64,000 bases of DNA from a virus. A model generated the notes under the pieces. That model saw only the letters and a program-made list of their open reading frames with translations, made no database searches and had not been told where the DNA came from. The stretch covers positions 56,030 through 120,029 of IMG/VR virus record IMGVR_UViG_3300023184_000046. One strand, written 5' to 3'. Shown here piece by piece: positions 5,727-63,841 of this stretch (the stretch's first letter is position 1; the number at the start of each line of letters is the position of its first letter). The position numbers and the translations under genes were made by a program.

Positions 5727-5785
5727 ATTTTATTTATACTTTTAAAATAAAAATTAATATTTTAAAATTAACTAGTAAATAAATT

Positions 5786-6238
5786 ATGAAGTTTAAATTT
5801 TGGATAATGACAGAAGAATTAATTTCATCTTTACCAAGAGATGATTATGGATCTCCAATTGCATGGGAAGAAGATAACTACAGAATAACACTTTATAATA
5901 CTAGCAATTACTTTAATGCTTATTTGATGCACAATGAAAACAATTGGAAACAAATTGGTTCATTGAAAACAAAAATATCTACAAAAAAAATAAATGGCAC
6001 TAAAATTAAATACGCTGAAGTTTCTACTATCTCTCTTCATAAAGAACACCAAAATAAAGGCTTTGGAACTCAGCTTTATAAAATATTATTAAAATATTTG
6101 CCAGATGATATTGTTGGTATTGGATCAAATTTACAATACAGACTAAATAAAAAAGAAATACCTAAAATATATCAAAAATTAGGATATGAATCTTATAATG
6201 ATGGTGATTTTCAATTAATAAAAAAAAATACAATTTAA
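5786..6238 (+). CDS. Tagged GNAT-family acetyltransferase
   Basis: 150 aa. N-terminus MKFKFWIMTE is the regional tag, ending in an [LI]-x-x-E/M-T-E site. The remainder has GNAT features: ISLHKEHQNKGFGTQLYKILLKYL (residues 82-105) corresponds to the acetyl-CoA pyrophosphate-binding Q/R-x-x-G-x-G/A loop (QNKGFGT), followed by a KLGYESYNDGD-type beta-6 region. An AGTAAATA box ends 4 nt before ATG and there is no Shine-Dalgarno. Predicted to acetylate an unknown small molecule or protein, possibly as an injected effector. Confidence 0.75.
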   Translation: MKFKFWIMTEELISSLPRDDYGSPIAWEEDNYRITLYNTSNYFNAYLMHNENNWKQIGSLKTKISTKKINGTKIKYAEVSTISLHKEHQNKGFGTQLYKILLKYLPDDIVGIGSNLQYRLNKKEIPKIYQKLGYESYNDGDFQLIKKNTI

Positions 6239-7846: not shown

Positions 7847-9301
7847 ATGAACTTTAAAAACTGGCTATTATTATCTGAAGGTTCAATTAAAATTCCTTAC
7901 AAGGTAATTCAACCTATTGTTAATGATTATTTTGATTTTTACAAAAATGTTAACTTGGGTAAATCAAAATTTAGAGATGAAGAACACATATACACACTTG
8001 ATCTTTCAGATACAAACTACAATTTCCCTAATATAATTCCAAAATTAAAAGTAACTTACAAAGGCATTAAGGGTAAAACTACTATAGGAGGCTTTACACC
8101 ATCTAAAACTAAAATTGAATACCCACCGTTACCTTATAATCCTACAAGAGATCCAATTACTGTAATTGGAGATATTATATTAAAAAAAGATTTACCTTCT
8201 AACGAATCTCCTGTTAAATTAATTGAACATGAAGTCATACATTTTATACAAGACCTTATAAATATTCACATGTCACACAATAAAGGAATTTACAAAAATG
8301 ATGGTCAATTAGGTAGTGGCAAAAGACCTGATTTCGGTGGCAGCGGACCAAGAAAATTAACACAAGATTTAATGAATAAATTAAATGTTGATTTTCTTGG
8401 TGATAATAAAAAACATGGAAGAAGAATAGATCACGAAAAAATAGCAACTGAATATCAAACTAACTTAAGTTCTATTATAATTTTATTATATCAACAATTT
8501 ACAAGTACATTTTTAAATGGAAATTTAAACCCAGATTATTATTCTTATCCTTATGACATTATAAAAAATATCAAAACTAAAGAAGATTTTGAAAAAAACA
8601 AAGATGTAATTATTGAATTTTTAAATAATCAAACCGCAAAAAAGAAATTTATTCAAAAAATTAATATTAATAAATTAACAAAAATTAAAGATTTCAATAA
8701 AGAATTGTATAATTGGTACTTAAGTGAAATTTATAAAAACTTTGTAATAAAAGATATTGAAGAATATAAACTAAATCAAATTGTAGATGAATATTTCTTT
8801 GTTAAAAATAAATCATCTAATGAAGATAAATATTTTGCAAATAACATAACTTTAAGAAATTTTATAAAACTATTTAAAAATACAGATTCTAATAGTTATA
8901 CTATAAATCACAGTAATTCTTTGCAAGAAATACCTTATCACAAAACCATTGAAAATGTTAGTTCAAGTTATTTATTTGATTTTGCAAAAAGAATAATTGA
9001 TAAGTTTTATCAAGTTAAAGCAAAAGACATGGATTTGAAAGATTATAGATATGGACCAGAAGTTTCTAAGAAAACTATCAATCGCAATGACTTAAAAATT
9101 ATTTTTAATTTTATTAAAAAGTTAAAAGAAAAATCCAATACTTATGCACCAGAAGGCTTTGTTGGATTAGAAGAACTTTCAAGAGAACTTGTTGTATTCT
9201 TAGCAGAAGATATCGCATGGTCATATGAACAACATTATAGAAATAAAAAAATAGATAAAATTCCACCTACAACATATGATATAATAGAAGACTTTTTATG
9301 A
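7847..9301 (+). CDS. Tagged HExxH metalloprotease-like protein
   Basis: 484 aa. N-terminus MNFKNWLLLSE is the canonical regional tag with an L-L-S-E end resembling the T4 prohead-protease site ([LI]-x-E). HEVIH at residues 128-132, inside LIEHEVIHFIQDL, is a zincin HExxH helix. The long C-terminal region is helical and unassigned. No ribosome-binding site; a CATAAATA box lies 5 nt upstream. The next gene starts in an ATGA overlap. Inferred: a head-packaged peptidase delivered with the DNA; the substrate is unknown. Confidence 0.7.
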   Translation: MNFKNWLLLSEGSIKIPYKVIQPIVNDYFDFYKNVNLGKSKFRDEEHIYTLDLSDTNYNFPNIIPKLKVTYKGIKGKTTIGGFTPSKTKIEYPPLPYNPTRDPITVIGDIILKKDLPSNESPVKLIEHEVIHFIQDLINIHMSHNKGIYKNDGQLGSGKRPDFGGSGPRKLTQDLMNKLNVDFLGDNKKHGRRIDHEKIATEYQTNLSSIIILLYQQFTSTFLNGNLNPDYYSYPYDIIKNIKTKEDFEKNKDVIIEFLNNQTAKKKFIQKININKLTKIKDFNKELYNWYLSEIYKNFVIKDIEEYKLNQIVDEYFFVKNKSSNEDKYFANNITLRNFIKLFKNTDSNSYTINHSNSLQEIPYHKTIENVSSSYLFDFAKRIIDKFYQVKAKDMDLKDYRYGPEVSKKTINRNDLKIIFNFIKKLKEKSNTYAPEGFVGLEELSRELVVFLAEDIAWSYEQHYRNKKIDKIPPTTYDIIEDFL

Positions 9302-10812
9302 ACTTTAAACAATGGTTATTACTAACTGAATCTGTATCAATTTCTCAATCTTTAAAGAAATTTAAAAATAATAAAGATTTCGAAAAAACATATAATATTG
9401 CTTTTAAAAAAATCAGCAGTTTACCTCCTAATGTGCCAGATAAATTAAAAAGAATTTATGTAAATTATTTTGCGTGGAATACTTTCAATGCAAAAGAATT
9501 AACTGGCATGCCAAGTGTAAAGATTATGATTGATGATAAGATAAATAGTAATATAGATGATGTTAAAGATTATTTAGTTGCAAATAAAGACAACAATGTT
9601 TTGACATCTAAATTAAATAACCCTGAGTTTTCATTAGAAGAATTAAAAAAATTAAGTGAAGTTTGGCATGAAGAATTAAAATCTAAAAAATTAACGCCAG
9701 CTAAAGAAGGAGAAACACTTATTGATTTATCTAATTTGGGATCTCAATGGCAAGGATGGAGATGGGTTTCTTTAAACGAAAAATATTGCAACCAAGAAGC
9801 AAATGCTATGGGTCACTGTGGAAATGCTGCATACAAAACAGGAGATAATATACTTTCTCTGAGAGATTCACAAAATGTACCACACCTTACATTTATTGAA
9901 AACAGAGGTGTTTTAGGAGAAATGAAGGGAAGAAATAATTCTAAACCTTCACCTAAATATCATTTGCCAGTTATAGAATTGCTTAAAAGCAATAAAATAC
10001 TATCAGTAAGAGGTGGTGGACATGCCCCAGAGAGTAATTTTTCATTAGATGATTTAATTAACAAAGAAGCTTTATTAAAAATAAAACCAAAGTTAGATTT
10101 TAACATTTATAAAAAAGAATTTATCAATTCCTTGCTGAAGCTTCCTGATAATGAAAAAATTAATGAAATAGAAAACATCTTAGATGAAAGATTTACTTTA
10201 GATGAGCATGAAGATTTTGTTTATAGCAAATTTAAAAGCACTGAAGAATTTTTATCTTGGATGAATAAATTTACTAGTTCGAATATAAAAAGAAACCTTA
10301 ACTTTGGATTTTTAGATGAAATGATGGATCATATAGATATAGATATATCAGGCGAAGAAATAAAAGAAGCAATTGAATATATTGATGAATTTAATTTTGA
10401 AAAAATTAAAAAACTAGCAAAAAATGAAAATGTTTCTTTAGAAGAACCAAAAGATATTCTAGAATTAACAGATTCATCTTTTAAAGATGATATCATGCAG
10501 CACATTACTGATGCTTTAAGAAACACATATGAACAAAGTATGTTAGATGAAATTTGGGATGATTTTAAATCTTCTTTTGAAAGCAATGAAGACAAAAATT
10601 ATTTGCTGAATAGAATCTATCATTCAAATGACATAAGAATTGTTTTAAACAAAAAATTACTAAATGATATTTTAACTAAATTTTCAAGTGAATCAAATAC
10701 TGAAAATTTTCAAAATTTGTTAGAAGAAATAAAATACACTTATTATCCAGCAGATGTTTACCCTAGTTTAAACAAAGAATCTTTTAATGAATATCTAAAA
10801 AGTTTAATTTAA
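9298..10812 (+). CDS. Tagged PcfJ-like protein
   Basis: 504 aa. Tag MNFKQWLLLTE, nearly identical to the preceding gene's. The central region (about residues 145-240) contains EANAMGHCGNAAY, then LSLRDSQNVPHLTF and GEMKGRNNSKP; this GHC...SLR...T...G..N order resembles the PcfJ-like family of plasmids and phages, whose biochemical role is unclear. The C-terminal half is helical and acidic. Starts within ATGA of the upstream protease gene, so the pair is translationally coupled. Confidence 0.65.
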   Translation: MNFKQWLLLTESVSISQSLKKFKNNKDFEKTYNIAFKKISSLPPNVPDKLKRIYVNYFAWNTFNAKELTGMPSVKIMIDDKINSNIDDVKDYLVANKDNNVLTSKLNNPEFSLEELKKLSEVWHEELKSKKLTPAKEGETLIDLSNLGSQWQGWRWVSLNEKYCNQEANAMGHCGNAAYKTGDNILSLRDSQNVPHLTFIENRGVLGEMKGRNNSKPSPKYHLPVIELLKSNKILSVRGGGHAPESNFSLDDLINKEALLKIKPKLDFNIYKKEFINSLLKLPDNEKINEIENILDERFTLDEHEDFVYSKFKSTEEFLSWMNKFTSSNIKRNLNFGFLDEMMDHIDIDISGEEIKEAIEYIDEFNFEKIKKLAKNENVSLEEPKDILELTDSSFKDDIMQHITDALRNTYEQSMLDEIWDDFKSSFESNEDKNYLLNRIYHSNDIRIVLNKKLLNDILTKFSSESNTENFQNLLEEIKYTYYPADVYPSLNKESFNEYLKSLI

Positions 10813-11894: not shown

Positions 11895-12416
11895 ATGAAA
11901 TTTAAACTTTGGCTGGAAAATGAATCTAATGATCTTTTAAATTGGTTGAAAAGTAAACCGCAATCAACCTTAACAAAATCTTGGGAAGATGAATCTTCTA
12001 CAGATTATTTGATTACAACTAAATTAAAAGATGATTCATTTATTCATTTTACTTTAAAAGATAGAGCATTGAAAATACTAGAAACTAAAAAAATATTGGC
12101 TAAACCACCACACGAAAGATATTTGTATTTCGGTGCTTATGCTATATCAGTAAACTTTGGATATCTTGTAGAAGATGTACAAATTAATCATGTTAAAGAA
12201 AATGAAACAAAAGAAAACCCAGCAGTTGCTATTAAGTTTAAAACTAATACTTTCCCACATAGAAAAATTGGACACCCAGAAGAGATAAATTGGGATCGAG
12301 ATGTTAGTATTATTGGTGCTGAAATTATTAAAGTTTCAGATGCATTAAATATGCTTAAAAATAATAAACCAAATCTTAAAGAAAACGATGGCTACTCAAT
12401 AGAGTATACAAAGTAA
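11895..12416 (+). CDS. Tagged protein, possibly ADP-ribosyltransferase-like
   Basis: 173 aa. Tag MKFKLWLENE, identical to the next gene's. Following sequence has IHFTLKDRALKILETKKI, then AYAISVNFGY, and AVAIKFKTNTFPHRKIGHPE with EINWDRDV near the end. This H-F-T / Ile-Leu / hydrophobic-strand order is reminiscent of DarT-type or other ADP-ribosyltransferase-fold proteins; the resemblance is weak and no catalytic Glu can be fixed. No Shine-Dalgarno. Confidence 0.6.
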   Translation: MKFKLWLENESNDLLNWLKSKPQSTLTKSWEDESSTDYLITTKLKDDSFIHFTLKDRALKILETKKILAKPPHERYLYFGAYAISVNFGYLVEDVQINHVKENETKENPAVAIKFKTNTFPHRKIGHPEEINWDRDVSIIGAEIIKVSDALNMLKNNKPNLKENDGYSIEYTK

Positions 12417-12419
12417 ACT

Positions 12420-13019
12420 ATGAAATTTAAACTTTGGTTGGAAAATGAAGATTACAGAGGTACACATCAACCTCCAACCAAAGAAGATGCTCCACTTCAT
12501 GATTTAACTAATACTTATCCAGATGATATTTATGGTCCAAATGGTGCAAGATATTATGGGCATGGTGACCCTAATATAGATAACTATACCATTAGTATTA
12601 TTCAATCTGCTAGAAATAAACCAAATATGCAAGTTAAAATTTATAGAGCTATGCCAAAAGTACTTTCTAGTCAAGAAAAAATAAATGATCTGGAAAAACA
12701 AAAAAAGTACATACAAAAAACAGGAAAAATACCTCCTGCTGCTATGGATTATCTTGGCTCTGCTAGTTCTTATTTTAATCCTTCTAAATATTATGAAATT
12801 CTTAACAAGGAATTAGAAAAAATAAACTCTAAACCTCTTGTTGAAAAAGAAAAAATTAAAATAAACTCTGGTGATTGGGTTTCAATAAATAGACAATATG
12901 CAGTCGAACATGGACAAAGCAGCTTAAGAAATAATTACAGGATTTTAACTAAAACTGTTCCAGCTAGAACACTTTTTACTAATGGCGATTCAATCCACGA
13001 ATGGGGTTATAATCCTTAA
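12420..13019 (+). CDS. Tagged ADP-ribosyltransferase-like effector
   Basis: 199 aa. Tag MKFKLWLENE, 3 nt after the preceding stop. VKIYRAMP (Arg76) fits the first ART strand, INSGDWVSINRQYAVEHG (149-165) the middle Ser/aromatic motif, and GDSIHEWGY (189-197, Glu194) the catalytic-Glu end; this three-part pattern is shared by many phage proteins. T4 Alt is an ADP-ribosyltransferase packaged in the head and injected to modify host RNA polymerase, so tag plus ART-like domain is a telling combination. Activity and target are inferred. Confidence 0.68.
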   Translation: MKFKLWLENEDYRGTHQPPTKEDAPLHDLTNTYPDDIYGPNGARYYGHGDPNIDNYTISIIQSARNKPNMQVKIYRAMPKVLSSQEKINDLEKQKKYIQKTGKIPPAAMDYLGSASSYFNPSKYYEILNKELEKINSKPLVEKEKIKINSGDWVSINRQYAVEHGQSSLRNNYRILTKTVPARTLFTNGDSIHEWGYNP

Positions 13020-13901: not shown

Positions 13902-14735
13902 ATGAACTTCAAACATTGGCTTAATGAAGAAAATACAGATAGTCAATCCAAACTCATGGATAGACTAAAGCACATAAACGATACATCCAATTATAGTGAT
14001 GGATTTGGAAATGATGGAGGAAACCACTTTCTTCTAACTCTATATTCAGCAGCCATGGGATATCCAAAAGGCACTAAAATCGTATCCATTCTCAATAGTA
14101 ATTTAAATTATTGGAAAGATCCTGATGTAAAAAATCTCATGGATAGTCTCGTCAGTGATGGCAAACTAAAAATTATTAATAAAAACGAAAACTTATTTGT
14201 TGGTGAACCAAATGCCGTAAATGCAATAGTTAAAGAATGGGAATATATTAGTAAATTTAAATGGGATAGCGAAAATCCAAGAATGAGTGAAAACCTTAAA
14301 AATGCACATAGAAGAATCGGGGTTTTACTTGGATACAAACCAGATGTAACTGAGGATTTTCTTGTGCATGCTGATAACTTGCACCACAATGTCCCAGAAA
14401 CAATTCTCATCGGCTCTGCTAGGATATACCTCATCGGAAATACTTTGATGATTAATGGGGAAAAGCAAAAATTTAATATAAAAATAACACCAGATCAAGT
14501 TGATATGCTAAAAAATATGGGAACCCTTAGCACTTTACAAAAAGAAAATATTATCGGAATAATGCCTCCTAATAAATCTGATTTTAGTAGTTCTCCAAGA
14601 CCTGCTGGACAGGAATTCATTAACCTTGGGGTTGCAAGAGTACAATTATCCAAGGATTCCATACATTTAAACAAAACAGTGATACCATTAACTAAACAGC
14701 AAGTCCAAGATATAAAAGATATGCTTGAAATATAA
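13902..14735 (+). CDS. Tagged hypothetical protein, 277 aa
   Basis: Tag MNFKHWLNEE, ending in L-N-E. The rest has two apparent parts: a helical domain (residues 20-160, GNHFLLTLYSAAMGYPKG) and a C-terminal part with two related segments (IYLIGNTLMINGEKQ and VQLSKDSIHLNKTVI), each followed by an LTKQQVQDIKDM-like helix, suggesting an internal duplication. No family recognised. Leaderless-type start. Confidence 0.65.
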   Translation: MNFKHWLNEENTDSQSKLMDRLKHINDTSNYSDGFGNDGGNHFLLTLYSAAMGYPKGTKIVSILNSNLNYWKDPDVKNLMDSLVSDGKLKIINKNENLFVGEPNAVNAIVKEWEYISKFKWDSENPRMSENLKNAHRRIGVLLGYKPDVTEDFLVHADNLHHNVPETILIGSARIYLIGNTLMINGEKQKFNIKITPDQVDMLKNMGTLSTLQKENIIGIMPPNKSDFSSSPRPAGQEFINLGVARVQLSKDSIHLNKTVIPLTKQQVQDIKDMLEI

Positions 14736-18488: not shown

Positions 18489-19292
18489 ATGGATACTTTT
18501 GAAAATGCTACATCTTGGCTTCACCCTAATGGAACTTTCCATCCAATTAAAAAATATGGTAGCCATTCAAACTGGGCTTATCACAATAATAAAAAACTAG
18601 AAGAACTTTTTGCATCTGGATGGATGAGAGTAACTTTTATAGGCGATACTATCTATGTTAGCAATGATCTTTCTGTTCTTCCAACTTTTAAACAAAAAAA
18701 ATCAATAATGGATTTGTCAATAGAAAGTAACGAAAGATTTAAAAAAGCAATCTATGAAAATGGCAAAGGAAAAGAAACTACATTATTCTCATCTTATGAC
18801 TTCTCAGAATCAAATAATCACATCAACTTTAAAAACTGGCTACTACTCTCTGAAACTAGAGAAGGACTTCTACGATACCTTAAAGAAAAATTACCACATG
18901 TTCCTGAATATGTCTTATTTGATTTATTTTATAGAACTATTAAAAATTCTAAACCTGAAGAAATAGAAGAATTTATAGAAACATATAAAGATTATAAATG
19001 GGAACTTAAAACAAATTTTCCTATAAACTACGAAATATTTGATACTAACACTATCCGTAATTTTAAGGAAAGAAAAGGTGGATCAGAAAACCCTTATGGA
19101 GTTCCTAACGATAAACAAAGACATGATAAACAAAAAGAATTAATCGCAATTACAATTCCTAAAGAACCAATCATATTAATAAAAAATGGTACTAAATATT
19201 CACTTGCAGAAGGATGGCATAGAACCATTCAATTATTTGAAAAATATCCAAAAGGATTTGTATACCCACAAGTTTATATAGGTATACCATGA
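18489..19292 (+). CDS. Fusion of small phage domain with tagged ParB-like protein
   Basis: 267 aa. Start 18489 (MDTFENATSW) is preferred because the promoter box ends 4 nt upstream; the earlier TTG lies inside the box. Residues 1-110 form a domain common in phages (ASGWMRVTFIGDTIYVSND). At residue 112 the sequence INFKNWLLLSE restarts the regional tag, with ATC where other genes have ATG. The C-terminal part ends with PIILIKNGTKYSLAEGWHRT (about residues 225-245), like the ParB/sulfiredoxin G-x-H-R motif. It looks like two genes joined by loss of a stop and a start codon. Confidence 0.7.
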   Translation: MDTFENATSWLHPNGTFHPIKKYGSHSNWAYHNNKKLEELFASGWMRVTFIGDTIYVSNDLSVLPTFKQKKSIMDLSIESNERFKKAIYENGKGKETTLFSSYDFSESNNHINFKNWLLLSETREGLLRYLKEKLPHVPEYVLFDLFYRTIKNSKPEEIEEFIETYKDYKWELKTNFPINYEIFDTNTIRNFKERKGGSENPYGVPNDKQRHDKQKELIAITIPKEPIILIKNGTKYSLAEGWHRTIQLFEKYPKGFVYPQVYIGIP

Positions 19293-21121
19293 ACTTTAAA
19301 AACTGGCTAATACTCTCTGAAGAACAACTTTTAAATGAGGACTTCAAAACTCAAAGAGAAAAATTCATCCAACAAGGCATAGAACCAGATGCCGTTGACT
19401 ATTACCTCAATACATTTAAAACTATCAAAGATAAAAAATACAAACAAATAAATGACCCAATACCAAATCTTGAACATATCAAAGATAAAACCAATATAGA
19501 TGCTTTTAAAATATGGAAAGAACTAGAAGACTTCGTTGATTATGTGAAAAGCCAAGTAGATGTTTCTGGTAAAACTAGTTACAAGAATATCAAAGTAGAC
19601 GCAATACCAATTTATGAAGATAACGACCTGATAATTTATTACGCAGATACTCCTCAAGCATGCGTTACTTACAAAGGCAATGTTCCATATTCTTGGTGTG
19701 TTGCCCGAACCGATGCAAGTAATATGTTTTATCACTATAGATTTGGAACACATAAACCATCATTCTATTTTGTAAAAAACAAGGAACGAACCAATAAAGA
19801 ACTTGAAACATTTAAAGGAGGAACATTCACTGATGAATATCACTTCTTCGTAATCCAAGTAATAAAATATGCTAAACCTGAAAATAAAGATGATCAACAA
19901 TACATTGTAACTTCTGCACAAAATATTGGTGATCAACAAATGTCATGGAATGATATATTAAAACTAGAACCTAAATTAACTAATAAAGAAAATATATTTA
20001 TCAGCAAGCCTCTTGGAATTAAAGAAGAAGAACTATACAAAAAATTCATAAATGGTATTTCTGATGAAGAATTTGAAAACTTACCTTTTGATGAAAAAGA
20101 TATGTACTTAAATATTTATGTTAGACAAAACCGACCACTAACCGACAACCAATTTAAATTTTTACCACCTGATTTAAAAAATAAGTATATTGGCTTTGGA
20201 GTTGGTTTGTCTGATGAACAAGTTGAAATGATTGATTCTAAATTATATAAAAGATATGAAGATGTCACAAAAACTAAAATAGAAAAAACTATTGGAACTG
20301 ACGAATTTAAATTTACACCAAGCGAAGTTAATATATTATTAAAAAATATAAATGAATTTGATTTTAACAAGCTTTCTTATGCGAATGTTGCATATTTGCT
20401 TAAATACGCAACCGATACAGACAATATAGACAACATGGCAAAGTTAATTATACAAAAGAAACAAGAACTTAATGGTATTGATGTTTTTAATTTGCTTGAT
20501 AATGCAACCGATAAAGAAGAAATAGCAGAACTATTACAAAAAGATAAAAAAGATAAAAAAGATAACATTAGTAAACTTAAAAACAATGATATTGTTACAT
20601 TGCTTGATAATGCAACCGATAAAGACAAAATGGCAGAACTACTTATAAAATATAAAACAAAACTTCATGATCCATGGACCTCGAGTATTTGGCATTTGAT
20701 GAATAAGGCAAAAGACAAAGACAAAATAGCAGAACTAATTATCCAAAAAGAAACAGAACTTTCTAGCTTAAATCTCGTTCCTGAGAGTGGTATCGAAGCG
20801 TTACTTTATGATTCAAACGACACAGAAAAAATAGCAACCTTGCTAGGAACAGATAACATAAATAGACTTGAAAGTAGAAATATTCAAAATTTGATTACAA
20901 AATTAGAGGGCAGACCTTTAAAACTAGAAATAATTGCTAAAATATTAGGAGAAAAAAATATAAGTAAACTTACTTATGATTCTATTAAGTTAATGCTTAG
21001 CAAATCATATCCCAAAAAAGAAAATACCGCAAAAATACTAAATCAATATTACGCAAATAAAACACCACAAATAAAAAGATTAATTAATAAACATTTAAAA
21101 ACAAAAACCCCTCCTGAATAA
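19289..21121 (+). CDS. Tagged large protein, PcfJ-like N-terminal half plus helical repeats
   Basis: 610 aa, starting in an ATGA overlap. Tag MNFKNWLILSE. Residues 120-230 contain ADTPQACVTYKG, PYSWCVARTDASNMFYHYR and a VIQV strand, a Trp-Cys-x-Ala-Arg pattern related to that of the PcfJ-like protein at 9298. From about residue 250 the protein consists of repeats such as LLDNATDKEEIAELL and LLDNATDKDKMAELL (about 30 residues each), probably an alpha-solenoid for protein binding. Last gene of the plus-strand block, converging with an HNH gene 4 nt away. Confidence 0.7.
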   Translation: MNFKNWLILSEEQLLNEDFKTQREKFIQQGIEPDAVDYYLNTFKTIKDKKYKQINDPIPNLEHIKDKTNIDAFKIWKELEDFVDYVKSQVDVSGKTSYKNIKVDAIPIYEDNDLIIYYADTPQACVTYKGNVPYSWCVARTDASNMFYHYRFGTHKPSFYFVKNKERTNKELETFKGGTFTDEYHFFVIQVIKYAKPENKDDQQYIVTSAQNIGDQQMSWNDILKLEPKLTNKENIFISKPLGIKEEELYKKFINGISDEEFENLPFDEKDMYLNIYVRQNRPLTDNQFKFLPPDLKNKYIGFGVGLSDEQVEMIDSKLYKRYEDVTKTKIEKTIGTDEFKFTPSEVNILLKNINEFDFNKLSYANVAYLLKYATDTDNIDNMAKLIIQKKQELNGIDVFNLLDNATDKEEIAELLQKDKKDKKDNISKLKNNDIVTLLDNATDKDKMAELLIKYKTKLHDPWTSSIWHLMNKAKDKDKIAELIIQKETELSSLNLVPESGIEALLYDSNDTEKIATLLGTDNINRLESRNIQNLITKLEGRPLKLEIIAKILGEKNISKLTYDSIKLMLSKSYPKKENTAKILNQYYANKTPQIKRLINKHLKTKTPPE

Positions 21122-22687: not shown

Positions 22688-22717
22688 CTATTTAAAAAAT
22701 ATTTTATAAGATTGTTC

Positions 22718-22906
22718 TTAAGTACAACTGTGCAATAGGAAATCTTAAGTACAACTGTGCAATAGGAAATCTTAAGTACAACTGTGCAATAGGAAATCTT
22801 AAGTACAACTGTGCAATAGGAAATCTTAAGTACAACTGTGCAATGGGAAATCTTAAGTACATCTGTGCAATAGGAAATCTTAAGTACATCTGTGCAATGG
22901 GAAACA
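22718..22906. repeat. Seven tandem 27-bp repeats carrying the 17-nt motif
   Basis: Seven units of TTAAGTACAACTGTGCAATA followed by GGAAATC, with C/T and A/T variants in the last two. Each unit contains one copy of the dispersed AAGTACAWCYGTGCAAT motif. Lies between promoter A and the terminator of the next gene. Confidence 0.95.
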
Positions 22907-22919
22907 CTAGGCACAAAAA

Positions 22920-22954
22920 AATACCCTACACCATTTTGTTTGGTGTAGGGTATT
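22920..22954 (-). terminator. Hairpin terminator, 14-bp stem
   Basis: AATACCCTACACCA / TGGTGTAGGGTATT, with the same stem as at 22145 and a different loop. Terminates 22972-23427. Confidence 0.85.
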
Positions 22955-22971
22955 AAGTTTACTTACATGGT

Positions 22972-23427
22972 TTACATGGCCTTGGATGATTCGATCTCGG
23001 CAAAGCTGGCCTGCACCTTTACAGTTTGCTTGCCTGATACCGATACCTTTGGTATCGTTTCGGCAAAGACTTCTTTGATTGTATCCATCTTTGCTTTCAT
23101 TTTCTTTGACAGGATTACCAGCTTACCATCTTCTTTTTTCTCAAGCATTGCAGCCATGGCCTTCGCAGCCTTCTCGACTGCTTCATCACCATAGCTACCA
23201 AACTCGGCAGCAAATGCAGCAGCAAACTCATAGATGCTTACAGAGACAGTACCAGTCCTCTCGTAATCTTCGCCTTTATTGATTGAACCAGAAACATCAA
23301 TGTTCTGGATATCACCAGAAATATTATCAAGGATTGTTATCGAGCAATCAATTTTATGATTACCCGTGTTAAGCTTTTCTTCTTTTTCTCCAAATACCTT
23401 CTGGACTGCGATAAAAATCTCATTCAT
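22972..23427 (-). CDS. Hypothetical protein, paralogue of 38764-39219
   Basis: 151 aa. GGAG ribosome-binding site. Shares with the 38764 product: VFGE, a TGNHKIDCSITILD strand, GSINKGEDYERTGTVSVSIY, an Ala-rich helix with AVEKAAKAMA, and a terminal KEVFAETIPKVSVSGKQTVK. Such conservation in two separate units points to a functional family, but I do not recognise it. It looks like an early accessory protein. Confidence 0.7.
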   Translation of the reverse strand: MNEIFIAVQKVFGEKEEKLNTGNHKIDCSITILDNISGDIQNIDVSGSINKGEDYERTGTVSVSIYEFAAAFAAEFGSYGDEAVEKAAKAMAAMLEKKEDGKLVILSKKMKAKMDTIKEVFAETIPKVSVSGKQTVKVQASFAEIESSKAM

Positions 23428-23512
23428 AGCACTATCTCCATCATAGCTGGCATTGATTGTTTATAAGTGATTGTCACCAGCAATAACGAATCACTTTGTT
23501 TGTCTAATGTAT

Positions 23513-23541
23513 TATCGGTTTAAAAGCTGTGCCATTTTCAT
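23513..23541 (-). promoter_or_regulatory. CCGATA-type promoter (B)
   Basis: ATGAAA (variant -35, 23541-23536), 17 bp, CCGATA (23518-23513). Sequence from -35 to -10 nearly identical to promoter A. Confidence 0.65.
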
Positions 23542-23571
23542 CTATTTAGAAAATATTTTATAATTTATGAT

Positions 23572-23822
23572 TCTTAAGTACATCTGTGCAATAGGAAATA
23601 AGTTTATGATAATAATTCTTAAGTACATCCGTCCAATGGGAAATAAGTTTATGGTTTATGATTCTTAAGTACATCCGTCCAATGGGAAATAAGCTTATGG
23701 TTTATGATTCTTAAGTACATCTGTGCAATAGGAAATCTTACGGCAATGGTAAATCCTAAGTACATCTGTGCAATAGGAAATCTTACGGCAATGGTAAATC
23801 CTAAGTACATCTGTGCAATAGG
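23572..23822. repeat. Dispersed 17-nt motif cluster (six copies)
   Basis: Copies of AAGTACATCYGTSCAAT at roughly 45-bp spacing, each followed by GGGAAATAAG or AGGAAATC, with a recurring TTTATGATTCTTAAG linker. Two copies read GTCCAAT instead of GTGCAAT. No ORF. Confidence 0.85.
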
Positions 23823-28072: not shown

Positions 28073-28690
28073 CATTTCTTATTGTACGGATGTACTTTAG
28101 GATAAGCTTATTTCCTATTGTGCGGATGTACTTTAGGATAAGCTTATTTCCTATTGTGCGGATGTACTTGCAGGCGGATGTAATTATAAAAAAATAAGTT
28201 TACAAGTACATCCGTATAATAAGTTTATAAGTACATCCGTGCAATAAGTTTATAAGTACATCCGTGCAATAAGTTATTAAGTTGAATTGTTTTAAGTACA
28301 TCCGTGCAATAAGGAAAAGCTTATTTTGTTTTATTTCGTATTGCACGGATGTACTTAATAAAGTTTAAGGTCACAAATTGTGACCTTAAGTACATCCGTC
28401 CAATGGGAAATAAGTTTATAGTTTATAATTCTTAAGTACATCCGTGCAATGGGACACAATTCTGGGACATAAATTATTTTGTAAGTACATCTGTGCAATA
28501 GGAAATAAGTTTATAGTTTATGATTCTTAAGTACATCCGTGCAATCGGAAATCTTAAGTACATCTGTGCAATAGGAAATAAGTTTATGGTTTATGATTCT
28601 TAAGTACATCCGTGCAATGTGAAATAAGTTTATATTTATAATTCTTAAGTACATCCGTGCAATGTGAAATAAGTTTATGATAATAAGTTT
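28073..28690. repeat. Large cluster of the 17-nt motif, both orientations
   Basis: Roughly 17 copies of AAGTACATCCGTGCAAT or its complement ATTGCACGGATGTACTT, mixed in orientation. Inverted neighbours (e.g. 28225-28390) could form cruciforms. Linkers are AT-rich (AATAAGTTTATA). No ORF; part of a 1.5-kb gene-free region. Confidence 0.88.
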
Positions 28691-32765: not shown

Positions 32766-33030
32766 CATTTCCTATTGCACGGATGTACTTGATAATCATA
32801 AACTATAAGTTTATTTCCTATTGCACGGATGTACTTGATAATCATAAACCATAAGTTTATTTCCTATTGTGCGGATGTACTTAAAATTTCCCGTTGTCCC
32901 ATTGCCCGTTGTCCCATTGCACGGATGTACTTAATATTTAAATAAATAAATTCAGTTAAAGTTATAAGTACATCCGTGCAGTAAATTTATAAGTACATCC
33001 GTGCAATAAAATTATAAGTACATCCGTGCA
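32766..33030. repeat. 17-nt motif cluster, inverted then direct
   Basis: Four copies as ATTGCACGGATGTACTT (32774-32932) followed by three as AAGTACATCCGTGCARTAA (32967-33030), giving an overall inverted arrangement. Then AT-rich TTATAAG runs to 33080. No ORF. Confidence 0.85.
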
Positions 33031-33115
33031 ATAAGTTTATAAACTTATAAGTTTATAAGTTTATATTTTATAAACTTATAATGTTTTTTCAGGCGGAGAT
33101 TTGAACTTATAAAAA

Positions 33116-39292: not shown

Positions 39293-39395
39293 CTATCTTG
39301 CAAAAAATCTTAAATTTTTTAAAAGTATTTTGAAAATCATATAAGTTTATATTTGTCCGCAGGTTAACTAAACGCCTACAGGCAGGCAAGTAAAT

Positions 39396-39490
39396 TTATA
39401 AGTACATCCGTGCAGTAAAGTTATAAGTACATCCGTACAATAAAGTTATAAGTACATCCGTGTAATAAGTTTATAAGTACATCCGTGCAA
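39396..39490. repeat. Four direct copies of the 17-nt motif
   Basis: AAGTACATCCGTGCA(G/A)TAA units at 27-28-bp spacing with AATTTATA/AAGTTATA linkers. Rightmost cluster of this motif in the window; the rest of 39293-39627 shows no gene. Confidence 0.88.
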
Positions 39491-43325: not shown

Positions 43326-43478
43326 ATGAAAAAATTAGTTTTACTATGTGTGTTTATATCAGGATGTGCAGGTGTAAAGAATTCAGTTAACACAGAAGCA
43401 AAGACATCCTACTATCCAAATAACACACAAAGTATTGAACGAATAGATTTATCTATTCAAATGAAAAAAGAATGGTAG
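43326..43478 (+). CDS. Small lipoprotein, 50 aa
   Basis: Found by eye. AAAGGAG then ATG. MKKLVLLCVFISGCAGVKNS is a textbook lipoprotein signal with lipobox I-S-G-C (Cys14). The mature part is about 36 residues and polar, ending QMKKEW. Phage lipoproteins of this size include outer-membrane spanins (Rz1-type) and superinfection-exclusion proteins, but no inner-membrane partner is visible here. The stop abuts the 3' end of the convergent tRNA-Asn gene. Confidence 0.75.
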   Translation: MKKLVLLCVFISGCAGVKNSVNTEAKTSYYPNNTQSIERIDLSIQMKKEW

Positions 43479-43551
43479 CTCCCCCTCTTGGACTCGAACC
43501 AAGAACCCCGAAATTAACAGTTTCGTGCTCTACCAATTGAGCTAAGGAGGA
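43479..43551 (-). tRNA. tRNA-Asn (GTT)
   Basis: 73 nt with complete cloverleaf: acceptor TCCTCCT/AGGGGGA, D-arm AGCTCAATTGGTAGAGCA, anticodon loop CTGTTAA (GTT), T-arm with GGTTCGAGTCC. CCA is not encoded. Confidence 0.93.
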
Positions 43552-43691
43552 ATAAAACCACATTAATCAATATTAACAATAATTAGCAATATATCAAGTT
43601 AATTACATTCTTTAAAATAATATTTTAAATAAATTTTTTGTGTTTACTAAATAAGTTATGACAACCTTCATAACCTTTAGGATAAACACCC

Positions 43692-44240
43692 ATGATAAAG
43701 CTTAAATGCCTATTTTGTTATTCCAATTTGACAGGTAAAAAAATAAAATATTGCTCAAAAAACTGCGAAAACAAATATAAAGTAGAAAAAAACAAGATGA
43801 ATAGACATAAAGAAAAAGCTTTAAAGCCAAAAATTAAATGTCTAGTGTGTAAAACATTTATTCCAGAAGGAAAAAGAAAATTTTGTTCTGCTAATTGTGC
43901 TTGCAAATACAAAAACAGAGAAGATAATGGTGCTAGTTCTTATAAAAGCCAGTTAAAAAGAGCTAAAGAAAGAAAATTAATATTAATTAATATGCTTGGT
44001 GGCTCATGTCAATCTTGTGGTTATTGTAAAAATTACTCCGTTTTATCTTTTCATCATGTAGATCCAAAACTTAAAAAGTTTGGAATAGACTCTCGTCAAT
44101 GCTCTAATCGTAGTTGGGAAACTCTATTTGAAGAAGTAGCCAAATGTATCCTCCTTTGTCTTAATTGCCATTCAGAATTACATCATCCACAATGTTCTAT
44201 TGGGCCAGCAGGGAATCGAACCCTGTCTGCCGAATTATGA
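43692..44240 (+). CDS. HNH endonuclease with zinc fingers
   Basis: 182 aa. Two N-terminal C-x2-C...C-x3-C ribbons (CLFCYSNLTGKKIKYCSKNC; CLVCKTFIPEGKRKFCSANC), then the HNH core: CQSCGYCKNYSVLSFHHVDP and CLNCHSELHH. AGGAT site. The natural domain ends at about residue 170; the last 14 residues (GPAGNRTLSAEL) are simply the antisense of tRNA-Met, which the gene overlaps by 40 nt. Likely a mobile free-standing homing endonuclease. Confidence 0.85.
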   Translation: MIKLKCLFCYSNLTGKKIKYCSKNCENKYKVEKNKMNRHKEKALKPKIKCLVCKTFIPEGKRKFCSANCACKYKNREDNGASSYKSQLKRAKERKLILINMLGGSCQSCGYCKNYSVLSFHHVDPKLKKFGIDSRQCSNRSWETLFEEVAKCILLCLNCHSELHHPQCSIGPAGNRTLSAEL

Positions 44241-44272
44241 GTTCGGAACTCTATCCAATGAGTTACAGGCCC
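44201..44272 (-). tRNA. tRNA-Met (CAT)
   Basis: 72 nt. Acceptor GGGCCTG/CTGGCCC with one U-U mismatch, D-arm AACTCATTGGATAGAGTT, anticodon loop CTCATAA (CAT), T-arm CAGGGTTCGATTCCCTG. Elongator Met or lysidine-modified Ile cannot be decided from sequence alone. Confidence 0.92.
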
Positions 44273-44293
44273 ATATTTTAAGTTTATTTAAAT

Positions 44294-44977
44294 TTATGAT
44301 TTTAAGCAAGAGTATTTCTCTAACTTTATTAAACCTTTATCTAATTCTTTATGATGATTAGGGCACAATGCAACTAAGTTTTTAATATCATTAACATCTT
44401 TAATCAATGTTTCCATCGTAAAAGATGCAATGCTTTTAATGTGACAAATCTCAATATAAATAGAATAACCACAAACATAACAGCATTTAGGTTCACCTGA
44501 TTTCTTATAAACTCTTCTGGCGTGATCTCTTATACCAGCGTGTCTATTAGAACCCTTGCCTCTTAAATAATGTAATCCTAATGTATTTTCACCAATATCT
44601 TTTATTTTTGTTATTTTAATAAAACATTTTTTACAATAAGATGCACCAGTTGAAATGTATGTCTCACATCCATCATGGCCACATTTATTAGTAAAGGTTC
44701 TTTTTTTAAAGTTTTTATTATTAATCTTGGCAGAACAGCTTGAAGAACAATATACTAATCCACTAGGAGATATTTCTTTTAACCTGCGATTTACTTCTTT
44801 ATTACAGGAAGAGCAGTTGTAAGTGCCACTTTGGGCGTTTTTTATTTTATCGCTTAAAGAAACATAAGGAACACAATCATAGCAGGATGTCCTATTGCCA
44901 CATTTAATTCTTTTTCCATTAACTTTAGTATTTACTAAGAATTCCTTATTGCACTTAATACAAATTTTGGTCTTCAT
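44294..44977 (-). CDS. HNH endonuclease with N-terminal zinc fingers
   Basis: 227 aa. Several C-x2-C pairs (CIKCNKEF, CYDC, CSSCNKE, CSSSCSAK, CGHDGCE, CKKC) followed by an HNH core: CCYVCGYSIYIEICHIKSIA then LVALCPNHHKELDKG. No Shine-Dalgarno; the start codon is buried in a 9-bp palindrome (44972-44993), as in translationally silenced T4 homing endonucleases. It sits between tRNA-Met and tRNA-Thr. Confidence 0.85.
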   Translation of the reverse strand: MKTKICIKCNKEFLVNTKVNGKRIKCGNRTSCYDCVPYVSLSDKIKNAQSGTYNCSSCNKEVNRRLKEISPSGLVYCSSSCSAKINNKNFKKRTFTNKCGHDGCETYISTGASYCKKCFIKITKIKDIGENTLGLHYLRGKGSNRHAGIRDHARRVYKKSGEPKCCYVCGYSIYIEICHIKSIASFTMETLIKDVNDIKNLVALCPNHHKELDKGLIKLEKYSCLKS

Positions 44978-44993
44978 AAATTATTTTATGAAG
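44972..44993. promoter_or_regulatory. Hairpin covering the HNH start codon
   Basis: CTTCATAAA / TTTATGAAG, 4-nt loop. The ATG of the HNH gene (44977) is in the stem. Could occlude translation or act as a processing signal in the tRNA transcript. Confidence 0.6.
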
Positions 44994-45017
44994 ATTAATT
45001 AAAAATGCAAATTGAAA

Positions 45018-45090
45018 AGCTAATGGAGAGACTTGAACTCTCAACTTCAGGTTTACAAAACCTGCACTCTACCAATTGAGTTACACTAGC
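45018..45090 (-). tRNA. tRNA-Thr (TGT)
   Basis: 73 nt. Acceptor GCTAGTG/CATTAGC (one G-U pair), D-arm AACTCAATTGGTAGAGTG, anticodon loop TTTGTAA (TGT), T-arm GAGAGTTCAAGTCTCTC. Its 5' end overlaps the stop codon of the upstream CDS. Confidence 0.93.
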
Positions 45091-49253: not shown

Positions 49254-50393
49254 CTAATCCTCAACATCTTCAGTATCTTTATATTTAATACTGTCAATAT
49301 TATCTACTTCAACATCATCTCTTTCACCAAGATAAACTGGCTGAATTAAACTTCCACCAGCAAAAGCATAAAGATATTTAACTTCTATATGCTTTCCTAT
49401 AGTTGGAATTTCATAATTAACTGGAATAGTAACATTGCCAACTGAAACAAGATTACCATCTTTCATCAAACTAATACCAACACTTCTCTTATTGCTTACA
49501 CTAGAAACAATACAAGTGCAAGACTCACAAAACTTAAATTTCAAGTAGTCACCACCACTTGCTGGCCTACCTACATGGTAACTAGCACTCTTACGCTTAA
49601 ATACTACACCTTCTTTTGCTTTTGAATCATTAAACAACTTTTCTTTTTCTTCTTTTTTACCATAAGCCTTTACAAGCTTGATACATTCTTTTTTATTAAA
49701 ATAAAGCCTAAAAAACTCAGCCAATAAGCTGTATCGTCTTTCAAAACTTTCTTCTCTTAAATCTACATCCATGCTAAGGATATCGAAAACATAAAAAGTT
49801 TCACCAATAAGTTCACCATCAAGGAAACAGTTTGGCGGTAAATCTTCAAAACTTTCAAATAATGTTTTTATTTCTTCACTTACTGGAACTTCTTTACCTT
49901 TTCGATTATAACCCTTAAAGTTAGAACCAAATGGAAGTCCTTCAAATTCTAGCATATACCTAACACCATCCATCTTCTCTTGTATCATCCAATCATTATC
50001 GTTTATAAGATTATGTGCTTGTTCTTCCTTTATAGCATTAAGCAATACACATTTACTTACTGCTACTTCTTCTGTTTTAATTACTGGTATAACTTTAGAT
50101 GGTTCACTAGATTCATTTTTTTCTATAACAGAAATTATACTGCCTTTATATCCTTTATTCATTTTTTCTTGAACTAGCTTGTCGAAAATTCTGTTTGCTG
50201 TAGAGAAATCAACAGGTTCATTTGTTTTAGTTCCAGTCTGTAAAGCATTGCCCCTTCTTCCAAAGGCAAAGTTTACAACACACTTATCATTTTCTACTCT
50301 TTCTAAAGAAACATAGTAAACCTTATCGCTGCTGCCTTCTTTGAAAGATAGAGCAGTTTCCTTAACTACATAATTTGCACAAGCACTAGACAT
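49254..50393 (-). CDS. ATP-dependent DNA ligase with N-terminal WGR-like domain
   Basis: 379 aa; start at the second ATG (50393) because AAGGAG is 7 nt upstream of it. Residues 5-90 are a WGR domain (SSDKVYYVSLERVENDKCVV, FAFGRRGNALQTGT, DKLVQEKMNKGYK; Phe replaces Trp in W-G-R). Nucleotidyltransferase motifs: I EKMDGVR (Lys140 is the AMP acceptor), III FLDGELIG, IV EGVVFKR, V DYLKFKF; then an OB-fold C-terminus (KHIEVKYLYAFAGG). Seals nicks in phage DNA; the WGR domain may sense breaks. Confidence 0.88.
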   Translation of the reverse strand: MSSACANYVVKETALSFKEGSSDKVYYVSLERVENDKCVVNFAFGRRGNALQTGTKTNEPVDFSTANRIFDKLVQEKMNKGYKGSIISVIEKNESSEPSKVIPVIKTEEVAVSKCVLLNAIKEEQAHNLINDNDWMIQEKMDGVRYMLEFEGLPFGSNFKGYNRKGKEVPVSEEIKTLFESFEDLPPNCFLDGELIGETFYVFDILSMDVDLREESFERRYSLLAEFFRLYFNKKECIKLVKAYGKKEEKEKLFNDSKAKEGVVFKRKSASYHVGRPASGGDYLKFKFCESCTCIVSSVSNKRSVGISLMKDGNLVSVGNVTIPVNYEIPTIGKHIEVKYLYAFAGGSLIQPVYLGERDDVEVDNIDSIKYKDTEDVED

Positions 50394-50404
50394 ATCCATT
50401 CTCC

Positions 50405-50512
50405 TTAATTAATAATACTAATGATTACAGAAACTAACGCAACACAAAAAGTAATAGGTAAAACTACAGAAATGTAGATTACGCAAAACCCAAAAAACAA
50501 ATCTTGTAACAT
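50405..50512 (-). CDS. Membrane micropeptide, 35 aa
   Basis: Read by eye: AAGG 7 nt before ATG 50512, within the transcript started by promoter K. MLQDLFFGFCVIYISVVLPI then TFCVALVSVIISIIN is hydrophobic throughout, one or two membrane spans. Precedes the ligase by 12 nt. The coding call rests on the start signal, position and hydrophobicity. Confidence 0.5.
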   Translation of the reverse strand: MLQDLFFGFCVIYISVVLPITFCVALVSVIISIIN

Positions 50513-50525
50513 CTGTCTACCTTTA

Positions 50526-50554
50526 TATCGGAAATAAAAATAGTAAAATTTCAA
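50526..50554 (-). promoter_or_regulatory. CCGATA-type promoter (K)
   Basis: TTGAAA (50554-50549), 17 bp, CCGATA (50531-50526). Abuts the csrA stop codon. Drives the micropeptide, the ligase and probably 49091. Confidence 0.75.
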
Positions 50555-50725
50555 CTATTCTGCTTTTTTAAGTAGTTCTTCTCTAAGAATCTTTATATCG
50601 TCAGGTGCAATTATAACTAACCTAACAGAGTTTCTTCCAACCTCTATTACTTTTACAAAAGCATCGCCAATATAAAAACCTTCACCATTTTTACGCTTCA
50701 AAACCAATCCTGATTGCTTATCCAT
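50555..50725 (-). CDS. csrA: CsrA-family RNA-binding regulator
   Basis: 56 aa, too short for a length-filtered gene search. GGAGG 7 nt before ATG. GLVLKRKNGEGFYIGDAFVK, then VIEVGRNSVRLVIIAPDD and ILREELLKK follow CsrA's order (L-T-R-x-x-G-E...I-G-D...G-x-x-x-R-x-G-x-x-A-P...H-R-E-E-I). The conserved RNA-binding arginine at the C-terminal strand is present (ILREE). CsrA dimers bind GGA in mRNA leaders to control translation and stability; this one could retarget host or phage mRNAs. Located downstream of 50755 in its unit. Confidence 0.85.
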   Translation of the reverse strand: MDKQSGLVLKRKNGEGFYIGDAFVKVIEVGRNSVRLVIIAPDDIKILREELLKKAE

Positions 50726-50754
50726 TTCATATCCTCCTTGAATAGAATTTAAAA

Positions 50755-51183
50755 CTACTTGGCCTTCTTAACTTTCCTTAAATCTGATAAAGACTTTTCT
50801 GTTTTGATAATACCATAATCTGGCTTGAAGTTAATTTCTTCTTCTCCAAGTTCTTCCCAAGTTGTCTCTGGTACTTCAACATTGATTTTAATAACTCCTT
50901 CTTTAAAATCAATTTGAATTGATCCTCTTGAACCCTCATTGTTAAAATCTGCCCTGCCATCTTCTTCTATAATCTTCCAAAATAAATCGTCTATATCAAA
51001 ACCAATAGCACTTATACCACCTTCAAAGGTTGAAAAAGTACCAGCAGACCATGTTAAAATATTGTGATTATAGAAATCTGAAAAACTATCACCACTACCT
51101 TCAAATTGAACACTTATACTACTAATAGTTGGGTGTGCTTGTTTGATTTTCTTTATACCTAAAACTATTTCTTTGTCAGTCAT
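50755..51183 (-). CDS. Hypothetical protein, DUF6878-like, paralogue of 51683
   Basis: 142 aa. SSISVQFEGSGDSFSDFYNH near the N-terminus and FNNEGSRGSIQIDFKEGVIK in the C-terminal half; the G-S-G-D-S and N-E-G-x-x-G-x-x-x-I-D pattern resembles DUF6878-like proteins. Paralogous with 51683 over the whole length. Function unknown. Confidence 0.65.
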   Translation of the reverse strand: MTDKEIVLGIKKIKQAHPTISSISVQFEGSGDSFSDFYNHNILTWSAGTFSTFEGGISAIGFDIDDLFWKIIEEDGRADFNNEGSRGSIQIDFKEGVIKINVEVPETTWEELGEEEINFKPDYGIIKTEKSLSDLRKVKKAK

Positions 51184-51206: not shown

Positions 51207-51620
51207 TTATAGTTCGCTGAAAGTATACACTCTTTCTTCGATTGAAACCTTTTCACATATAGTCTTTTCTTTAGTCTTTGGAATATCACCAATAGCATTG
51301 TTCATCCAGTTTTTCAATTCCATTTCTGATAAGTAATCCATTACATTAGGGAAAAACTTAAATCTAAAATCCTCATTGATATGCTGTTCACATATTCTGT
51401 ATATGCTTACAACTTTACCATCAGAATTAGTAATTGTTTTCCCAAAGATTACTTCCATGACCTCATGTATCCAGAAATGGTTATGGGTCAATGCTCTATG
51501 GCGATTATCACCACAGTATTTCTTTGAACAATCCATTTTTTCATGGATTGCAAAGTAATCTTCTGTCTTACCACCAAACTTTTTAACGCTTGATAAAGCA
51601 TGAACAAGTGGTTCTGCCAT
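51207..51620 (-). CDS. DUF6915-like protein
   Basis: 137 aa. HALSSVKKFGGKTEDYFAIH, then DNRHRALTHNHFWIHEVMEV, FGKTITNSDGKVVSIYRICE and QHINEDF match the DUF6915 pattern of conserved His/Asp/Glu residues, perhaps metal-binding. Leader TAGTAGGAGGAAACTAATC before ATG is identical to that of 51683. About 16 nt from the predicted promoter L start. Confidence 0.75.
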   Translation of the reverse strand: MAEPLVHALSSVKKFGGKTEDYFAIHEKMDCSKKYCGDNRHRALTHNHFWIHEVMEVIFGKTITNSDGKVVSIYRICEQHINEDFRFKFFPNVMDYLSEMELKNWMNNAIGDIPKTKEKTICEKVSIEERVYTFSEL

Positions 51621-51682: not shown

Positions 51683-52096
51683 TTATTTTGCTTTTTTTAA
51701 GTTCTTATGCTTTTTTAAGTCAATTTTAGATTCTCCAAGGTCAGTCCAACTTGCTACTTCAACATTAACTTTAATAAACCCTTCCTTAAAATCAATTAAA
51801 ATTGATCCTCTTGAATCCTCATTACTGAAACCTGCTCTGTTATCTACAAACATAATTTCTACAAGCAAATTCGTCATATCAGCACTATATCTTATAGCTT
51901 TAATTTCATCTTTGGATAGGGATACAGTACCAGAAGACCATTCTAAACCAAAATGCTTGGTAACATTCGAGAATTCCTCACCTTTTGCTTCAAACTCACA
52001 ATGTATACTTTTAATATTTGGGTATGATTTTCTAAACTTCGACATGAGTGATAATATTTTCCTGTTAGCCATGATTAGTTTCCTTTTGTTAGCCAT
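51683..52096 (-). CDS. Hypothetical protein, DUF6878-like, paralogue of 50755
   Basis: 137 aa from 52096, where GGAGGA is 8 nt upstream; a 24-bp leader duplication creates a second in-frame ATG at 52072, from which the protein aligns end to end with the 50755 product. Conserved blocks: KSIHCEFEAKGEEFSNVTKH and FSNEDSRGSILIDFKEGFIK. Function unknown. Confidence 0.65.
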   Translation of the reverse strand: MANKRKLIMANRKILSLMSKFRKSYPNIKSIHCEFEAKGEEFSNVTKHFGLEWSSGTVSLSKDEIKAIRYSADMTNLLVEIMFVDNRAGFSNEDSRGSILIDFKEGFIKVNVEVASWTDLGESKIDLKKHKNLKKAK

Positions 52097-52118
52097 GATT
52101 AGTTTCCTCCTACTACTA

Positions 52119-52147
52119 TATCGGAAACGCCATGAGCAAAATTTCAA
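52119..52147 (-). promoter_or_regulatory. CCGATA-type promoter (M)
   Basis: TTGAAA (52147-52142), 17 bp, CCGATA (52124-52119). Leader nearly identical to that after promoter L. Confidence 0.74.
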
Positions 52148-62676: not shown

Positions 62677-63366
62677 TTAATATTTAAAAAATGAAGGCTT
62701 TGGAAATAACTTCATGTATCTATTATGTAAATCTTTATCTTTAACTATTTCCTTTTCGCCTAATTTAAAAGGTGCGTTTAAAACTTCTTTTGCATAAAGA
62801 TAAGAATCATCTATACTTTCAGCTATTGCATTTTCACCTAATTTAAAAGGTGCTTGTAAAACATTTAAAGCATAATGATAAGAATAATGTCCACTTGTAG
62901 CTATTGCAGCTTCACCTAATGGAAAAGGTGCGTTTAAAATATCTCTTGCATAATAATAAGAATACTTTGCACTTGTAGCTATTTCCTTTTCGCCTAATGG
63001 AAAAGGTTCTCTTAAAACATTTTCCGCATAAAGATAAGAAAATTCTGCATCTTTAGATATTTCAGCTTCGCCTTCTGGAAAAGATGTGTATAAAACTTCT
63101 CTTGCGTAACAATAAGAAAACTCTGCATCTTTAACTATCGCAGGTTCACCTAATGGAAAAGGTGCTTGTAAAACATTTAAAGCATAATGATAAGAATCAA
63201 ATGTACTATTGGCTATCGCAGGTTCGCCTAATGGAAAAGGTGCTTGTAAAACATCTCTTGCATAACAATAAGAATAAGCTGCATCTGTAGCTATCACAGC
63301 TTCACCTTCTGGAAAAGGTGCTTGTAAAACATTTAAAGCATATTCATAAGCTTCTTTTGCGTTCAT
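62677..63366 (-). CDS. PFPLGE-repeat protein, 229 aa
   Basis: About nine 24-residue repeats: YHYALNVLQAPFPLGEPAI, YCYAREVLYTSFPEGEAEI and so on. Each is a Y-A-x-x-V-L helix, a P-F-P-x-G-E turn, then A-I-A and a second helix. Ends FPKPSFFKY. AAGGATAAG before ATG. Two similar genes follow upstream. Predicted alpha-solenoid; function unknown. Confidence 0.78.
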   Translation of the reverse strand: MNAKEAYEYALNVLQAPFPEGEAVIATDAAYSYCYARDVLQAPFPLGEPAIANSTFDSYHYALNVLQAPFPLGEPAIVKDAEFSYCYAREVLYTSFPEGEAEISKDAEFSYLYAENVLREPFPLGEKEIATSAKYSYYYARDILNAPFPLGEAAIATSGHYSYHYALNVLQAPFKLGENAIAESIDDSYLYAKEVLNAPFKLGEKEIVKDKDLHNRYMKLFPKPSFFKY

Positions 63367-63376
63367 AAACTTATCC

Positions 63377-63841
63377 TTAATATGTAAAAAATGCTGGTTT
63401 TGGTTTAGGTGGAAATAACTTTTTGTATTGTTTATGGATAATTTTATTTTCAGATATCACCTTTTCGCCTAGCGGAAAAGGTGCTTTAAGTATATCTTTT
63501 GCATACTTAAAAGAACCAACTAGACTCTCAGCTATAGCCTTTTCACCTAGCGGAAAAGGTGCTTTTAAAAGATATTCTGCGTAATGATAAGAATAAGTTG
63601 AATGTGTAGCTATCGCAGGTTCACCTAATGGAAAAGGTGCATTTAAAACATATAGTGCATAATGATAAGAATATTGTGCATCTGTAGCTATCGCAGCTTC
63701 ACCTAATGGAAAAGCTGCTTTTAATACATCTCTTGCATAAGCAAGAGAATAAGCTGCATCTTTAGCTATTGCAGCTTCACCTTCTGGAAAAGCTGCTTTT
63801 AAAACATTATAAGCATGATTATAAGCTTCTTGTGCTGTCAT
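63377..63841 (-). CDS. PFPLGE-repeat protein, 154 aa
   Basis: Six 24-residue repeats of the same kind (YARDVLKAAFPLGEAAI, YALYVLNAPFPLGEPAI), then HKQYKKLFPPKPKPAFFTY. Tandem paralogue of 62677 with the same AAGGATAAG leader; 10 nt apart. Confidence 0.78.
   Translation of the reverse strand: MTAQEAYNHAYNVLKAAFPEGEAAIAKDAAYSLAYARDVLKAAFPLGEAAIATDAQYSYHYALYVLNAPFPLGEPAIATHSTYSYHYAEYLLKAPFPLGEKAIAESLVGSFKYAKDILKAPFPLGEKVISENKIIHKQYKKLFPPKPKPAFFTY

Follow-up and report, generated by a model that had tools for sequence, protein, structure and literature searches.

CsrA controls hundreds of bacterial mRNAs at the level of translation, and a huge phage equipped with a CsrA of its own could divert the metabolism, motility or immunity of its host. 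Does a 171-bp gene in viral DNA, of a size class that length cut-offs tend to drop, encode such a regulator, and on which mRNAs would it act? The question arises from a 64,000-nucleotide stretch (hereafter the window) that makes up the right-hand end of the 120,029-bp IMG/VR virus record IMGVR_UViG_3300023184_000046, itself probably a fragment. Since related huge phages also carry csrA, the question can be tested across a group of genomes, beyond one oddity. Coordinates below are those of the window unless another contig is named.

A first-pass annotation had taken the DNA to be of phage origin, and the contractile-tail genes of this virus record bear that out. The left part of the contig encodes a T4-like baseplate wedge protein (PHROG 219, E = 1.2e-28) and a 2,117-aa open reading frame (ORF) resembling a tail tape measure, together with a DNA primase and an exonuclease.

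A small gene for a diverged CsrA-family protein

The same annotation had proposed a 56-aa CsrA homologue at 50555-50725 and left its strand unstated. Its coordinates proved exact, and the gene lies on the minus strand as a complete ORF running from ATG to TAA, with the translated product MDKQSGLVLKRKNGEGFYIGDAFVKVIEVGRNSVRLVIIAPDDIKILREELLKKAE. The plus strand of this interval holds no coding frame and reads full of stops. The gene sits within a run of small minus-strand genes, between a WGR/ligase-like gene and a pair of paralogues that are 44% identical to one another and flank a DUF6915 gene. The features of this region are as follows.

49254-50399, minus strand: WGR and ATP-dependent DNA ligase-like protein, 381 aa, downstream of csrA and co-directional (DNA_ligase_A_M, E = 7.3e-13; WGR, E = 1.3e-4)
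50405-50554, minus strand: small ORF directly after csrA, 49 aa, with a hydrophobic C-terminal half; coding status uncertain
50555-50725, minus strand: csrA-family gene, 56 aa, ATG at 50725-50723, stop codon (TAA) included; Pfam, PHROG, alignment and fold matches
50733-50739, minus strand: Shine-Dalgarno sequence AAGGAGG, 7 nt upstream of the csrA ATG
50755-51183, minus strand: 142-aa gene of no assigned function, upstream of csrA; 44%-identity paralogue of 51683-52147
51207-51620, minus strand: DUF6915 protein, 137 aa, the query with which close relatives were sought

By sequence comparison, the assignment of the product to the CsrA family is confirmed. The match to the Pfam CsrA profile (PF02599) greatly exceeds what chance would give (E = 3.5e-14, 52.9 bits, gathering cut-off 27 bits) and covers profile positions 2-50 of 53, so that a domain above its curated cut-off extends over the length of the protein. 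Likewise, two PHROG families annotated as regulators match, among them ‘CsrA-like regulator’ with E = 3.5e-7, and phmmer retrieves solved CsrA/RsmA chains with a best E of 1.5e-4. The score against the NCBIfam csrA equivalog model TIGR00202 is 46.5 bits, below the cut-off of 70.1, which marks the protein as a diverged family member outside the called equivalents of bacterial csrA. Pattern scans of IMG/VR viral contigs yielded no close homologues. The sole match among genome contigs, from Sulfurimonas, was discarded as spurious because it sits inside a PAS-kinase ORF.

The Shine-Dalgarno sequence is the consensus and ranks among the four longest matches in the 71 leaders of the window. A TTG at residue 7, which would yield the canonical CsrA N-terminus, was also considered as the start codon, but it has no spacing to any Shine-Dalgarno sequence and the ATG is therefore preferred.

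RNA-contact residues and predicted fold

Absence of RNA-binding residues from an alignment would have spoken against a CsrA homologue, and the protein passes this test. Although only 19 of 51 positions (37%) are identical in pairwise comparison with E. coli CsrA, an alignment that also included CsrA proteins from related phages shows equivalents of E. coli L2, L4, R6, E10, R31, A36, P37, R44, E45 and E46 all to be present, and isoleucines at E. coli positions 40 and 42 retain hydrophobic character. L9 and R48 of the window protein correspond to E. coli L4 in β1 and R44 in β5, the two most critical RNA contacts of the family (PMC7652899). The near-full-length domain and these two residues are thus held in common with bacterial proteins such as E. 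coli CsrA and Pseudomonas fluorescens RsmE.

The window protein departs from E. coli CsrA at several points. Five additional residues precede β1, one residue is deleted between β2 and β3, valine replaces the usual glycine at E. coli position 33, and the C-terminus is short, ending at about the C-terminal helix. Judging from the alignment, the N-terminal extension, the deletion and the loss of Gly33 could weaken RNA binding.

An AlphaFold2 model of the monomer, built with four phage relatives, reached moderate confidence (pLDDT 75, pTM 0.54), as expected when a single chain of an interlocked dimer is modelled. Strands β2 to β4 and the helix are formed, while β1 and β5, which pair across the dimer, are not formed in the monomer model. 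A Foldseek search with this model returned 14 matches at probability 1.00, all of which are CsrA/RsmA chains (TM about 0.6-0.7), and the next match falls to 0.72. The predicted fold thus agrees with the crystal and NMR structures of bacterial CsrA/RsmA proteins, although the best E-values of only about 1e-3 make this evidence supportive and not an independent proof.

Recurrence of csrA in phages

CsrA-family proteins had been described in the first-pass annotation as few among phages, a view that is outdated. According to a survey from 2020, 30 of 2,517 phage genomes carry csrA, as do many plasmids (PMC7366521), and in our phage collection 86 records match CsrA at E ≤ 0.01. The known carriers include Pseudomonas aeruginosa phages F116 and phi297, Vibrio phages, Burkholderia phage JC1 and PTXU04 (gp28) (PMC7366521); most earlier csrA phages measure 38-65 kb, whereas the window contig belongs to a huge-phage group, and their CsrA proteins share less than 45% identity with the window protein. 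A single peptide of the JC1 product has been detected in virions (PMC9144972). Knockdown of the csrA homologue PTXU04_00028 markedly shrinks plaques (PMC11879866), which indicates that a phage-borne CsrA can make a difference to infection; we found no other functional test of a phage csrA in the literature.

Large phages with csrA are also on record. Xanthomonas phage PhiXhv-15 (229 kb), whose public record annotates a ‘translational regulator CsrA’, and the uncultured phage LR756511.1 (595 kb) resemble the group of the window contig in this respect but have no DNA-level match with the window; indeed, nothing in the phage collection matches it closely at that level. The presence of csrA in phages is therefore already known, the window gene adds a member, and the gain is modest. 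What is mildly new is the recurrence of csrA, its duplication and one STAS fusion in huge phages related to the contig. A partial search of the literature turned up no study in which csrA is discussed as a huge-phage feature.

Relatives of the window contig were collected through genes other than csrA. The baseplate protein has at least 99 relatives in IMG/VR, with up to 94% identity and on contigs of up to 459 kb, and a sole close match in the phage collection, at 43.6% identity, in LR756511.1, which carries csrA. Among 66 baseplate-selected IMG/VR records, csrA scored above the cut-off in all four of at least 200 kb (340, 343, 234 and 459 kb), with two copies each in the 340-kb and 459-kb records. 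It was absent from all four fragments of 102-181 kb and from all 58 shorter ones, absences that weigh little, given the long distance between csrA and the baseplate gene (in the 340-kb record, for example, 137 kb versus about 325 kb). All three relatives selected through DUF6915, independently of csrA (190, 75 and 82 kb; 85% identity), also carry the gene. A relative selected through the WGR-ligase (record G001, ligase relative L006) lacks csrA, and its neighbour genes differ. A 177-kb record with two csrA genes was found via csrA itself and was left out of the census count.

The copies in related phages are identical at 16-26 of 51 positions, yet R44 is intact in every one and L4 in all but one. 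Their neighbours vary, including PRPP synthetase, RNA ligase and metallophosphoesterase genes, with no fixed partner operon. In one relative (G071) csrA lies ~18 kb from DUF6915, whereas the two occupy adjacent positions in the window contig, so the copies may not be orthologous. A second csrA past the end of the window contig is possible. Because the copies are mutually diverged and stand beside different genes, they need not descend from a single viral ancestor, and repeated capture is an equally possible source of the recurrence. We entertain only tentatively the broader proposal that this huge-phage group has csrA as a near-constant, diversifying gene whose copies form a viral subfamily that is free of the usual host antagonists and controls host translation.

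Two variant forms were observed among these relatives. The 343-kb record (G024) encodes a 141-aa CsrA-STAS fusion (L088:1228-1653, minus strand), with the CsrA domain at residues 1-51 (E = 1.7e-23) and a STAS domain (E = 2.2e-8). The second csrA copies of the 340-kb and 459-kb records (L092 and L093) each have an insertion after β2 and a PRPP synthetase gene nearby.

Possible targets and roles during infection

The explanation that we consider probable on balance is that the window encodes a genuine CsrA-family RNA-binding protein of an uncultured huge contractile-tailed phage, which shifts translation during infection. The protein most likely folds as an interlocked CsrA homodimer that, by analogy with the known mechanism of the family, would bind single-stranded GGA sites overlapping Shine-Dalgarno sequences. 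Ribosome access would then be blocked on selected host mRNAs, and possibly on some phage mRNAs, and translation in the infected cell would shift as infection proceeds. Host mRNAs may be the main targets, and host carbon storage or motility might be reprogrammed as a result. The strong family match, the fold match, the retention of L4, R6 and R44 equivalents, the perfect Shine-Dalgarno sequence and the recurrence in relatives count in favour of this explanation, whereas the lack of GGA-loop enrichment (see below), the structural departures, the failure against TIGR00202 and the moderate monomer model count against it. The findings suggest, short of proof, that these huge phages alter the choice of mRNAs translated in the infected cell.

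FliW inhibits CsrA through an extended C-terminal tail, as in CsrA proteins of the Bacillus subtilis type. In contrast, the short C-terminus of the window protein lacks this FliW-contacted extension, so it may escape the FliW brake of its host. No FliW gene was found in the record that contains the window or in eight related phage records, and Rfam shows no CsrB/RsmZ-like sponge RNA in the window, the matches being tRNAs only.

Control of the phage’s own mRNAs, as in an early-to-late switch or autoregulation, might be the main role of the protein in place of control of host mRNAs. GGA is present in 43 of the 71 phage leaders, where AGGA-type Shine-Dalgarno sites are in use, and in bacteria CsrA commonly regulates its own expression (PMC7652899). 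However, GGA is not enriched in hairpin loops of these leaders (0.224 observed versus 0.204 in shuffles, s.d. 0.041), the GGA of the csrA leader has a low probability of lying in a hairpin loop (0.05-0.07), and the differing neighbours of csrA among relatives offer no consistent partner operon. We judge a mainly phage-directed role to be less likely than the host-directed one. A TTCA...TGAA hairpin whose loop contains GGA, seen by eye in the csrA leader and considered as a site of autoregulation, was set aside because it is not the predicted structure (P 0.05-0.07).

Interlocked CsrA-type dimers make heterodimer formation plausible, and the window protein might accordingly be a decoy that pairs with host CsrA, or a sink for CsrB-like RNA, releasing CsrA repression instead of imposing it. 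Its small size, divergence and missing C-terminal tail would suit this role, but a pure dominant-negative would have no need of the RNA-contact residues that are retained, and we regard a decoy as improbable. The gene could also be a recently captured bacterial csrA that drifts as passive cargo, a moron with no role in infection. The extensive divergence of the copies in related phages and their lack of synteny are what repeated capture would give; against this, R44 and, with one exception, L4 have been kept throughout, the ribosome-binding site is strong, and every examined record of at least 200 kb has csrA. Passive cargo therefore seems very improbable to us.

Other features of the contig

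Three tRNA genes (Asn, Met and Thr) lie inside 1.6 kb at 43478-45090 on the minus strand. To the left of the window, in the part of the contig designated L002, a 336-aa actin-like protein (contig 4952-5962, minus strand) matches Pfam Volactin (PF25216, E = 2.8e-60), a name used for a haloarchaeal actin. At least seven plus-strand ORFs carry an N-terminal motif like M[NK]FK.WL..(S/E)E that resembles the T4 capsid-targeting sequence, and on the strength of this motif their products may be internal head proteins. ORFs with such a motif are located at 733-1320, 7847-10812, 11895-13019, 13902-14735 and 19289-21121.

Repeats of several kinds are present. Scattered intergenic arrays with a 25-46 bp unit containing AAGTACATCCGTGCAATAGGAAATAAG occur on both strands at 22716-23822, 28074-28681, 32767-33042 and 39386-39490. 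Tandem repeats of 78 bp at 62677-63841 (minus strand) encode repeated YARDVLKAPFPLGEAAIA units, and repeat proteins of the same type are found in a relative (L099, 4217-5553). Two ORFs contain long simple protein repeats, one of 609 aa a TTTTEAP-rich stretch (2793-3571) and one of 1,706 aa SFPCISFCKPP repeats (L002:10772-15892).
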